Part shown: positions 7,682-40,072 of the stretch, in pieces | How positions within the stretch are numbered: the stretch's first letter is position 1 | How the letters are laid out: every line of letters starts with the position of its first letter | DNA from: Patescibacteria group bacterium | GTDB taxonomy: Bacteria; Patescibacteriota; Minisyncoccia; Moranbacterales; GWC2-37-73 | DNA length: 40,072 bases | NCBI GenBank assembly: GCA_022709565.1 | Contig: JAKLIO010000005.1 | Coordinates: forward strand, 1-40,072 | Direction: 5' to 3' | Translations under genes and position numbers: made by a program | The notes under the pieces: generated by a model | The model's input: only the letters and a program-made list of their open reading frames with translations | The model's database searches: none | Told to the model about the DNA's origin: nothing

Positions 7682-8043
7682 AAAAATGCATCAAGCCAAC
7701 CTATAAGCCGGATTCTGTTTAAAACAATCATTTATCTTGTTCCGATATTGCTATCGAAATCCAGCGACACTTCTAGTACTTCCTAGGGGAGTACTAGACA
7801 CGGTCTTGCATTCAGGTAAGGATTTAGCCGTTTCATTTCCCTATTACTAGAGAACTATTCCGTCGTAAAACGGAATGCTTAGCCTTGCGACCTTGCGCGT
7901 TTCTGTTCGCACCTCAAGAATTGCTTCTGATGGGAGTTACCCACTACCTTTGTCCCGATAAATCGGGATGGAATGTCCGGACTTTCCTACCCGTCGCTCG
8001 AAAAGCGACAGATCGATTGTTCAGTTGCCTTGATACATTTTTA
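7682..8043 (-). ncRNA. rnpB: RNase P RNA (type A-like)
   Basis: This is the catalytic RNA of RNase P, which trims the 5' leader from pre-tRNAs. On the minus strand I see the conserved GGAAAGTCCGGAC (P4 5' strand), GTGGGTAACTCCCA, GAAACGG, AATGCAAGACC, AGATAAATGATTG and finally ACAGAATCCGGCTTAT (P4 3' strand side), in the right order. The ends pair to form P1: AAAAATGTATCAA (8042-8030) with TTGATGCATTTTT (7694-7682), one G-U pair. A GCAA tetraloop hairpin (CGATAGCAATATCG) fits P18. The hairpin in the P15 position (CTAGTACT with AGTACTAG, about 7772-7797) shows no GGU for pairing with the tRNA CCA end. The 3' T-run of P1 may double as the terminator. Confidence 0.95.
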
Positions 8044-23225: not shown

Positions 23226-23297
23226 TTGGGGAGGAGGGATTCGAACCCCCGCATGCTGGGACCAGAACCCAGTGCCTTACCGCTTGGCTACTCCCCA
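23226..23297 (-). tRNA. tRNA-Gln (anticodon CTG)
   Basis: The minus strand folds as a cloverleaf: acceptor TGGGGAG with CTCCCCA, D-arm with AGCCAAGCGGTAAGGC, anticodon arm CTGGG-TTCTGGT-CCCAG (anticodon CTG, reading CAG codons), and T-arm GGGGG-TTCGAAT-CCC. The first pair is U1-A72, typical of tRNA-Gln. The discriminator A is at 23226, and the next bases are CATGG, so the CCA end is not encoded and must be added. The ATG of the pseudouridine synthase gene begins one base later. Confidence 0.96.
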
Positions 23298-38069: not shown

Positions 38070-38147
38070 TGGTACCGCGTATGGGATTCGAACCCATGAT
38101 TTCCAGGATGAGAACCTGGCGTCCTAACCGGGCTAGACGAACGCGGC
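38070..38147 (-). tRNA. tRNA-Glu (anticodon CTC)
   Basis: The minus strand folds as a tRNA: acceptor GCCGCGT with ACGCGGT, D-arm TCTAGCCCGGTTAGGA, anticodon arm CCAGG-TTCTCAT-CCTGG (anticodon CTC, reading GAG) and T-arm ATGGG-TTCGAAT-CCCAT. The discriminator A is at 38073 and CCA is encoded at 38070-38072, unlike tRNA-Gln in this window. The body without CCA is 38073-38147. Confidence 0.96.
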
Positions 38148-38183: not shown

Positions 38184-39482
38184 TCAATCAAGCGGGACAA
38201 AAGGTTTCCTTTTCCATTCTTTGTTTTGCCGGCAAAGAATTTTTTCGGCTTGAGACTTGTCAGCCACGATTTCTTCGACTATTTTTTCCATCCGCATGCC
38301 CTGAGAGCCTTTGACCAGAATCAGATCATCTTCTTGAATAATTTCAGCAATTTTTTTCGCCGCTTCCAACGGACTTTCAAAATACCAAATATTGGATTTG
38401 GAAAATCCCATTTCCCGGAGCTGTTTGATGGCATATTGCATGCGTTTTCCAACAGCCACAAACAAATTAACTTTGGCAGAAAATATTTTTTTGCCAACTT
38501 CCCTGTGGCCTGATTCGGTTTGCTCCCCAAGTTCCAACATATCACCCAGCACCGCGATTTTTCTCCGCGCTTCCAGTTGTTCCAGCACGTTCAGCGCGGC
38601 TAGCGTTGAAATCGGAGATGCATTGTATGTATCGTCGATTATATAGCTGCCCATGGCGCCATCAATAAGATTTAATCGCCCGATAGGCGCTCTTAAAAAC
38701 TCAAGCGCTTTGGCAATATCCACAATATTCATTTTGAAAAAAATTCCCACGCTTATTCCTGCCAAGGCGGCGTAGACATAATGAGTGGCTAGCAAATTTC
38801 TCAGGCGTATAGGAATATTTTTGCCTTCATAATTCAGTTTAAAACTGATGCCATCAGGTTGTCCATCCTGATAGTTATACAGCAAATTCGACGCGTTAAT
38901 CAACGCATTTTTATCTTGTCCATAAGTCAGAACCTGCGCTTTCGTATGTAAACTCATTTGGGAAGTCAGCTCATCATCCGCGTTTAAGATGGCCAATCCG
39001 TCCGGCGGCAGAGACTCAACCAATATTCTTTTTTCCTTGGCAATATTTTCAACCGTTTTAAAAAATTCGATATGGCTTATTGAAACATTAATAATCACAC
39101 CGACATCCGGCTTGATAAAAGACATGAAATATTTCATATCTCCCGGACGATCAACGCCAAGCTCAAAAATCAGAATCTCAGGATATTTAGGAAAGATAAG
39201 AGTGAAAAACCATTTTAAAATTACCCACATCCATTTAAAAATGTTTTTGTTCCCGCTTTCCGCGCCAATGATTGTCAGTGGAATTCCGATTTCATTATTA
39301 TAATTTTTAAGATTCTGGCGCACTTTATATTTTGAAGAAAGCACAGTAAAAATAGCCTCTCTGGCGGAAGTTTTTCCAACAGAACCTGTAACGGCCACTA
39401 TTTTCGGTTTATGCCGTTTGAGAACGGCAACCGCCATAAAACGCAGCACTTTTTCTAAAAATATTATTTTTTTCGATTTCAT
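38184..39482 (-). CDS. murF: UDP-MurNAc-tripeptide--D-Ala-D-Ala ligase MurF
   Basis: A 432-residue Mur ligase adding the D-Ala-D-Ala dipeptide to UDP-MurNAc-tripeptide. It has the ATP loop VTGSVGKTSARE (about 31-42), RQNLKNYNNEIGIPLT, and NVSISHIEFF, which align with the MurF central domain. The C-terminal domain has IDDTYNASPISTLAALNVL and GDMLELGEQTESGHREVG, and VKGSQGMRMEKIVEEI at the end; these are MurF rather than MurE signatures. The N-terminal uridine-binding domain is short, starting with a hydrophobic LEKVLRFMAVAVL, which is common in this lineage. It lies between an FtsI-type PBP and tRNA-Glu. Confidence 0.95.
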   Translation of the reverse strand: MKSKKIIFLEKVLRFMAVAVLKRHKPKIVAVTGSVGKTSAREAIFTVLSSKYKVRQNLKNYNNEIGIPLTIIGAESGNKNIFKWMWVILKWFFTLIFPKYPEILIFELGVDRPGDMKYFMSFIKPDVGVIINVSISHIEFFKTVENIAKEKRILVESLPPDGLAILNADDELTSQMSLHTKAQVLTYGQDKNALINASNLLYNYQDGQPDGISFKLNYEGKNIPIRLRNLLATHYVYAALAGISVGIFFKMNIVDIAKALEFLRAPIGRLNLIDGAMGSYIIDDTYNASPISTLAALNVLEQLEARRKIAVLGDMLELGEQTESGHREVGKKIFSAKVNLFVAVGKRMQYAIKQLREMGFSKSNIWYFESPLEAAKKIAEIIQEDDLILVKGSQGMRMEKIVEEIVADKSQAEKILCRQNKEWKRKPFVPLD

Positions 39483-39743
39483 AAACCTAAAAAATTACCC
39501 GGCCTCGCGTCGACAGGTAGTCTCCACGAGTCGAGGCAGGCGAATCAGTTACTAATATGCTAATGAGAGTTTTGCATGTTTATTTTTTCACGGAACTCTT
39601 CGCAGGCGCTAGCAAAATGTAAAATTAATTAATAATCTTCTAGATTGCCGTTTCAATAGGTTGCAGAAAAATTCACAGCGCCGAGTAGTGAAGTGAAAAA
39701 ATAAACATGCAAAACTCAAGAAACCAAATTGTAAATTAAAACA
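39483..39743. other. Intergenic region between ftsI and murF with large inverted repeat
   Basis: No gene is seen. It holds a 25-bp perfect inverted repeat described separately (39567-39717) and a GCCTCG/CGAGGC pair (39503-39537) with several mismatches around it. There is no obvious promoter for murF. Confidence 0.5.
39567..39717. repeat. 25-bp perfect inverted repeat enclosing 101 bp (MITE-like)
   Basis: GAGTTTTGCATGTTTA and nine further bases (39567-39591) is matched exactly in reverse complement at 39693-39717. The interior is about 101 bp and has a partial inner pairing around GGCGCT and AGCGCC (39603-39608 and 39677-39682). The total of about 151 bp and terminal repeats resemble a miniature mobile element. 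No clear target-site duplication is seen. Confidence 0.65.
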
Positions 39744-40072
39744 TTAATCCTCTGATGTTATTACTTTTTCCCCGTCTTTTTTCTTTTTATCCGATTTGTT
39801 ATCCGTGTCTTTTTTATCATTGGAAACAGGGGCTGTTTGGACAGCAGGTTGTCCTGGCGGCCACATAGCAGGAGCCATTTTAGCCAAAGGACTGGATGAA
39901 AAATCCTCTGTCGGTTGAACTTTATAATATTCTAGCAGAAATTTCATGATTTGTCCGAAAGTCGGAGCCGCTGAAGATTCTGCCCATTGCAGACCCTTCG
40001 GATTGACTATTTTAACTAAAACAACAAATCGCGGATCATTTATGGGGGCATAGCCCGCAAAGGAACCAATAT
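39744..40072 (-). CDS. ftsI: FtsI-type penicillin-binding protein (partial, C-terminus only)
   Basis: An open frame on the minus strand enters at the right edge and ends at 39744, 108 codons visible. The first part reads GSFAGYAPINDPRFVVLVKI, then NPKGLQWAESSAAPTFGQI and MKFLLEYYKVQPTED. The aaFaGyaP-x-dPr-V-V-hV pattern followed by AAP-F-x-x-I is the end of a class B PBP transpeptidase domain. It crosslinks septal wall. After that comes a low-complexity, Lys/Asp/Pro-rich tail of about 50 residues (DKKDTDNKSDKKKKDGEK), usual for cytoplasmic or flexible ends in this lineage. The ATG at 39947 is internal, not the start. FtsI rather than PBP2 is inferred from its place next to murF. Confidence 0.85.
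   Translation of the reverse strand, partial: IGSFAGYAPINDPRFVVLVKIVNPKGLQWAESSAAPTFGQIMKFLLEYYKVQPTEDFSSSPLAKMAPAMWPPGQPAVQTAPVSNDKKDTDNKSDKKKKDGEKVITSED

Follow-up and report, generated by a model that had tools for sequence, protein, structure and literature searches.

The ftsI-murF intergenic region

The DNA analysed here is a stretch of 40,072 nucleotides (the window) from a Patescibacteria group bacterium, probably one of the Moranbacteria. Close to its right-hand end, the 3′ end of an ftsI/PBP2 gene is followed by murF, with both genes on the minus strand and a gap of 261 bp between them. The ftsI end amounts to 108 amino acids and by itself matches no Pfam family; its homologue in the related genome RA.bin9 is a protein of 653 amino acids with PF00905. 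Similar murF genes were found at six loci in relatives (RA.bin9, Moraniibacteriota or Moranbacteria MAGs and others), and that of RA.bin9 (G003, locus L029) is the closest of the six, at 74% amino acid identity. The gap contains a palindromic element, referred to below as the A type, and a separate P-type repeat, arranged as follows.

38184..39482, minus strand: murF (MurF-type Mur ligase; PF08245, PF02875), the downstream gene
39498..39541, plus strand: degenerate GC-rich palindromic repeat (P type), separate from the A element and 24 bp away from it; related to 17 places in the own genome
39566..39719, plus strand: full palindromic repeat element (A type), matching CM R1 over positions 1-154 (161.1 bits, E 5e-33; the element is one of the seven R1 training sequences, so this match holds by construction)
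39567..39591, plus strand: left arm, 25 nt, complementary to the right arm at 25/25 positions
39592..39604, plus strand: internal loop, left side (GGAACTCTTCGCA), partly invariant in alignment A3 of nine full copies
39605..39610, plus strand: inner helix, left strand GGCGCT, from pairing and alignment A3
39677..39682, plus strand: inner helix, right strand AGCGCC, from pairing and alignment A3
39683..39692, plus strand: internal loop, right side (GAGTAGTGAA), partly invariant in alignment A3
39693..39717, plus strand: right arm, 25 nt, complementary to the left arm at 25/25 positions
39744..40070, minus strand: 3′ end of ftsI/PBP2, the upstream gene, 66% identical to the C-terminus of the RA.bin9 PF00905 protein

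The earlier note on this DNA had described perfect 25-bp terminal inverted repeats with an inner GGCGCT/AGCGCC pairing that carries the fold inward, and we confirmed both the coordinates and the match. When up to three mismatches were allowed, the two arms were the sole copies of this sequence within the 40-kb window, and none occurred in 100 dinucleotide shuffles. Predicted folding energies of the 151-nt strand are -50.7 kcal/mol for RNA and -32.9 for DNA (z -7.5 in each case), values that none of 200 shuffles equalled. The plus orientation of the A element is fixed by its asymmetric core and is antisense to ftsI and murF. Elsewhere on the minus strand, the window carries tRNA-Glu (38073-38147), tRNA-Gln (23226-23297) and the bacterial RNase P RNA (7688-8032).

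Copies in the same genome and in relatives

The window element is not single. Searching the own assembly (742 kb in 61 contigs, 67.6% complete) by blastn with the element and its flanks gave core-spanning stretches on contigs C1, C6 and C11, at identities of 80%, 77% and 70%, and two further matches that are partial; the paralogues first came from this search, before CM R1 was built from an alignment of seven copies. With CM R1, the own genome yields eight full copies of 152-156 bp, six of which are training sequences and two new. None of the eight lies inside a gene, and the seven besides the window element adjoin other, unrelated genes, scattered singly rather than in an array.

At the family level, CM R1 matched in 10 of 18 genomes at E <= 0.1, several of these matches being weak and made through other palindromes. 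More stringent searches recovered at least 39 distinct elements at the order level, in 11 of the 128 genomes and from two families (E <= 1e-4), and matches in at least 3 of 383 genomes of a class sample (E <= 1e-5), the counts being lower bounds as weak matches may drop out under the stricter filters. Every count includes a match in G122 (contig C15) that looks like an ordinary hairpin, has a core unlike that of the others and is possibly a false positive. RA.bin9 holds one full A copy, on contig C4 and its sole R1 match, together with one right-half copy. The span between inner ends is 145-153 bp in 29 of 32 elements (135 in G122; the other two rows were misregistered by the script), and arm length ranges from 21 to 29 bp across 33 A elements. 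Certain copies occupy the same locus in related species, which indicates that part of the copies are old and fixed.

Palindromes of other types are present in many copies in genera g5 and g8, mostly of 90-136 bp with a few longer. The B type, with the core ...GCACG...CTGTCGC...GGCCAAAAAG, occurs many times per genome in genus g5 (L074, L079, L103, L133, L146 and others; G010 C13:7813-7926), and blastn matches to it, partial and arm-only ones included, number 32 in G004, 25 in G010, 22 in G016, 18 in G012 and 11 in G007. In some B types, an outer CATACGCAATATATGGTT-like inverted repeat is visible by eye. The sister types of G004, G010, G012 and G016 have a conserved core set in self-paired, differing arms; between L074 and L079, for example, the cores are 98% identical and the arms quite different yet paired. 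A C type with the core TTTTTTTGCGGCTTCCGTATGAG has the same habit of core and arms (L065, L083, L115, L117 1497-1592, L118, L120) and is represented by one copy in the window's genome (C1:181144).

Orthologous sites without the element

In RA.bin9, just 8 bp separate the ftsI stop from the murF start, and no element is present between them. A single RA.bin9 contig (378 kb) was compared. It carries the genes on both sides of three of the own genome's eight loci, and the element is missing from all three; the two gaps besides ftsI-murF were judged by eye from sequence because their MAFFT alignments were poor. At the second locus, AAATTT followed by the element and AAATAAAAAAAC fits by eye onto the uninterrupted AATTTCATAAACAAAAAAAAC of RA.bin9. 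Empty orthologous sites are therefore found at 3/3 testable loci out of the own-genome total of eight. Gain in the window lineage is the simpler reading of these sites, although they do not polarise it by themselves. The outcome that the earlier note had named as arguing against mobility, a single copy conserved in place in all relatives, is thus not what was found.

A B-type element (L079, in G004) is likewise absent from G010, where the corresponding site has 13 bp instead, between flanks of 88-90% identity. We considered whether arms are acquired from a hairpin pre-existing at the target and found no support for the idea, as neither arm is present at this empty site or in the 8-bp gap of RA.bin9.

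The same comparison bears on the proposal of the earlier note that the palindrome is a cis-acting attenuator or terminator controlling murF. Its strong fold and its position between two genes on one strand would suit such a role, but the RA.bin9 ftsI-murF gap without an element and the association of the other seven copies with other genes disfavour a murF-specific device. In addition, the genomes of L030, L033 and L034, where murF follows an FtsI-like end by eye, are without a CM R1 match at E <= 0.01. A scan of 39300-39900 for terminator-like sites (a GC-rich hairpin plus a T run, with loops of 3-8 only) found 0 against 0.6 expected. At L031 and L032, a different gene lies upstream of murF. 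We consider an attenuator very improbable.

Element ends and the search for a transposase

As regards target-site duplication, TA dinucleotides flank both ends of 9 of the 32 elements and one end of 13 (background 0.06); the ten elements with TA at neither end include G000:C11 and G105:C25, whose ends were misregistered by the script. The window copy has TG/AG instead of TA and agrees with the end consensus at 9/15 positions at each end. Some relatives have a common end, GGACTTACGCATTTG, together with the flanking TA. When the terminal-repeat pattern AGGACTTACGCATTTGA was searched with one mismatch allowed, 25 of 128 genomes matched and the reversed control gave 0 matches; among the 128 genomes scanned, the window's own genome and RA.bin9 had no match. 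The evidence from ends and TA therefore comes from relatives.

Looking for a transposase with matching ends, as the earlier note had advised, produced none: in a non-exhaustive scan of 48 loci of about 1.6-3.2 kb, end pairs were 79-221 bp apart with no transposase between them, and three wider pairings (1322, 1327 and 1498 bp) each consisted of two separate elements joined. For some MITEs, no partner is known. Y1 transposases (PF01797), the REP/RAYT type, were rejected as a partner because their presence does not track that of the elements; RA.bin9 has a copy and 0 PF01797 matches, and the own genome has one. This single Y1 transposase domain (L265, G000:C23:5-349) lies at a contig end. Eight stretches of viral contigs with the terminal repeat were also set aside, as by eye they resemble chance matches in phage genes, L241 excepted. 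A literature text search for the terminal-repeat string returned nothing related, as judged by title.

The element is thus short, has terminal inverted repeats, carries no transposase gene, is present in multiple dispersed copies and is missing from orthologous sites in a relative. We conclude that it is probably one member of a dispersed set of MITE-like, non-autonomous palindromes, ~153 bp long and present in part of this patescibacterial order. Among the ideas put forward in the earlier note, a non-autonomous miniature element is the one best supported, by the dispersed copies, the empty orthologous sites, and the shared ends and TA of some relatives.

Conservation of the core and pairing of the arms

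In alignment A3, the positions invariant among the nine full copies lie in the core (GnAnCTnnnCGnAGGCG ... CGCCGAGnAGnGnA), which consists of a short GC helix with an asymmetric internal loop, and the outer stem varies. In integron attC sites, the conserved boxes are located in the outermost arms. An attC-like recombination site, which the earlier note had raised as an integron-like hairpin, would be similar in size and in its imperfect hairpin; here, however, the outermost arms are the variable part, no conserved outer boxes are found, and the copies are single and scattered with no cassette array, so that we give this interpretation practically no weight.

Pairing is nonetheless kept in the variable stem. 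In the RNAalifold structure, 97.1% of 310 cells are paired, compared with 87.2% in shuffles, and two-sided changes affect 19 of 35 pairs and 41 cells, compared with 9.8 pairs and 13.9 cells in shuffles, of which 0/500 were as high; related sequences can beat shuffles, and such comparisons are biased towards a structure taken from the very sequences under test. The number of pair types (31 versus 29.7) is a covariation measure on which the elements were not above shuffles. The pairing pattern was destroyed when the partner was slid along. Non-Watson-Crick arm positions within the nine copies number 14 of 198, whereas re-pairing arms between copies gave 74 on average and never fewer than 29 in 10,000 re-pairings, counts that are inflated by the imperfect arm register between copies. 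One copy (C1:36k) is clearly worse paired, at 5/22 positions.

The exactness of the arms had been taken in the earlier note to point to recent insertion or strong selection. We rejected recent insertion as a conclusion from exactness: core-spanning paralogues are at most 80% identical to the window copy, arms remain paired across the other, diverged copies, and, since near-identical copies are absent, there is no sign of recent movement. As to selection, the changes in the three younger orthologous pairs of A type (90-91% identical) are one-sided in 13 cases and two-sided in none. Eight of the 13 leave a standard or G.T pair in each species, and these observations favour gradual change over whole-arm copying. 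Selection on a folded strand could keep the pairing, as could replication that copies one arm onto the other, and the young pairs lean to selection.

Arm copying (quasi-palindrome correction), in which the fold itself is not under selection, would account for arms that are far more alike within one copy than between copies. It could also explain an orthologous B-type pair (G012/G010, 66% identical) in which four arm pairs have changed in place on both sides and four on one side, but it fits less easily with the one-sided changes of the younger pairs. We regard it as a possible but less favoured explanation, and one compatible with a mobile element.

The MITE-like element may also be read more specifically as a mobile hairpin, the inner core of which is the conserved unit and each copy of which carries its own near-perfect outer stem, so that the inherited trait would be self-complementarity and not sequence. 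We advance this reading tentatively and think it on balance doubtful; under it, either the mobilising machinery would read a folded single strand, or strand switching would rebuild the arms at each move.

Orientation and strand

Flanking ORFs, called mechanically by length, place 25 of 33 elements (32 full, one half) between co-directional ORFs, with 19 of these elements opposite to their neighbours and 6 in the same direction; 3 others lie between divergent ORFs, 2 between convergent ORFs, and 3 lack a flank. Collapsing the three orthologous pairs leaves 17 opposite and 5 same. The bias may reflect an insertion preference. None of the 33 is spanned by an ORF of 60 amino acids or more. Among B types, the orientation of which is arbitrary, 19 of 27 co-directional cases are same and 8 opposite.

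On the element's own strand, non-Watson-Crick arm positions are G.T rather than A.C by 40 to 16 over the 33 A elements. For B types, the ratio is 13:63 over 48 elements (of 82 core hits), with one common C.A mismatch dominating. We do not rely on a strand argument from these numbers, as the strand on which the model was trained biases the A types.

A many-copy family of structured non-coding RNAs, or of DNA strands that the cell uses in folded form, kept for its function and dispersed only secondarily, would account for the two-sided changes, the invariance of the core helix and part of the loop, the near-constant size, the G.T excess and the orientation opposite to co-directional neighbours. 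Several observations count against it. The G.T-richer strand is mostly not the one transcribed with the genes, and training on that strand favours G.T; we saw no common gene context, and empty sites exist. There is no promoter-like site within 39300-39900. The window element has no Rfam match at the gathering score, and the A elements in L040 and L063 have none up to E 5. Such a family therefore seems rather unlikely to us. B-type elements in L074 and L079 have weak Rfam matches, to microRNA and Phe-leader models, far below gathering.

The neighbouring P-type repeat

The blastn search that retrieved the A copies also drew in the P type, a GC-rich palindrome of 42-45 bp. The window's P copy, with two mismatches at 39499-39518, is one of 21 pattern matches in the own genome. 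Of ten strict matches in 21 sources, nine lie inside longer ORFs, to which they add ~14-15 residues (e.g. PASTRGNDRSSTRGG); P-type loci are L016, L019, L021, L022, L024, L025, L026, L027 and L028. Eight host proteins match Pfam, as RecJ, topoisomerase I, Fpg, TatD, LytR-CpsA-Psr, a radical SAM protein, a glycosyltransferase and a SIS/GATase protein of the GlmS type. Where the P insert sits, the RecJ homologue in RA.bin9, at 68% identity, shows a gap of 15 residues; on the RA.bin9 contig, 3 of 9 hosts have a hit, one of them just 29% identical. The P half-palindrome occurs in 40 of 128 genomes, with 21 matches in the own genome, a maximum of 47 in one genome and 8 control matches overall. In its in-frame insertion into genes, the P type resembles the Rickettsia palindromic elements, and this side result may be more surprising than the A element itself.

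Discussion

REP sequences and REPINs, with their RAYT (Y1) transposases, are dispersed extragenic hairpins, and the A element is like them in this respect; it is longer and has terminal repeats, and Y1 genes do not track its copies. Judged by anatomy, the closest counterpart appears to be the Correia/NEMIS element of Neisseria, for which forms of 155 and 107 bp, terminal repeats of 24 bp and TA at the termini are reported (PMC2229807). The ~155-bp form and the A element are both intergenic and end in long inverted repeats (of 24 and 25 bp, respectively), and either would form a long hairpin if transcribed, a likeness of anatomy alone. TA marks the termini in Neisseria, and those of part of the relatives here. 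Unlike in the Neisseria elements, the conserved part here is the core, with arms that diverge between copies of one genome through compensating changes, and the phylum is different.

The ERIC/IRU repeats of enterobacteria are reported to be 127 bp long with 7-bp terminal repeats, and their orientation relative to the gene to matter (PMC2229807); by description, they share with the A element the character of short intergenic palindromic repeats and differ in these dimensions. Rickettsia palindromic elements (RPE) are palindromes of 105-146 bp with long stem-loops (PMC2229807), to which the A element is similar in form; they differ from it in entering genes, given that no ORF of 60 amino acids or more spans any of the 33 A elements.

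The copies would have been spread in trans by a TA-targeting transposase able to recognise their ends, as is held for Correia elements, and the autonomous partner would have been lost or have escaped notice. With a 261-bp gap between co-directional genes, ftsI and murF may be co-transcribed, which would place a long hairpin in their mRNA. RNase III cleavage of the transcript is reported for Correia elements (PMC10969869, PMC2229807), and the ftsI-murF hairpin may similarly be cut by RNase III or alter the stability of the mRNA, effects that have been reported for Correia and ERIC sequences. Any such effect would be a by-product of the element and not a dedicated murF switch.

Among the matches listed in our literature search, the titles and opening parts of abstracts contained no description of miniature repeats in candidate-phyla bacteria or this group. 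Candidate-phyla bacteria are regarded as streamlined. In these genomes, exactly matching arms should not be taken to mark a young element, and palindromes of near-constant size with compensated arms offer a natural data set on whether small bacterial repeats are shaped by their fold, by mobility or by replication errors.
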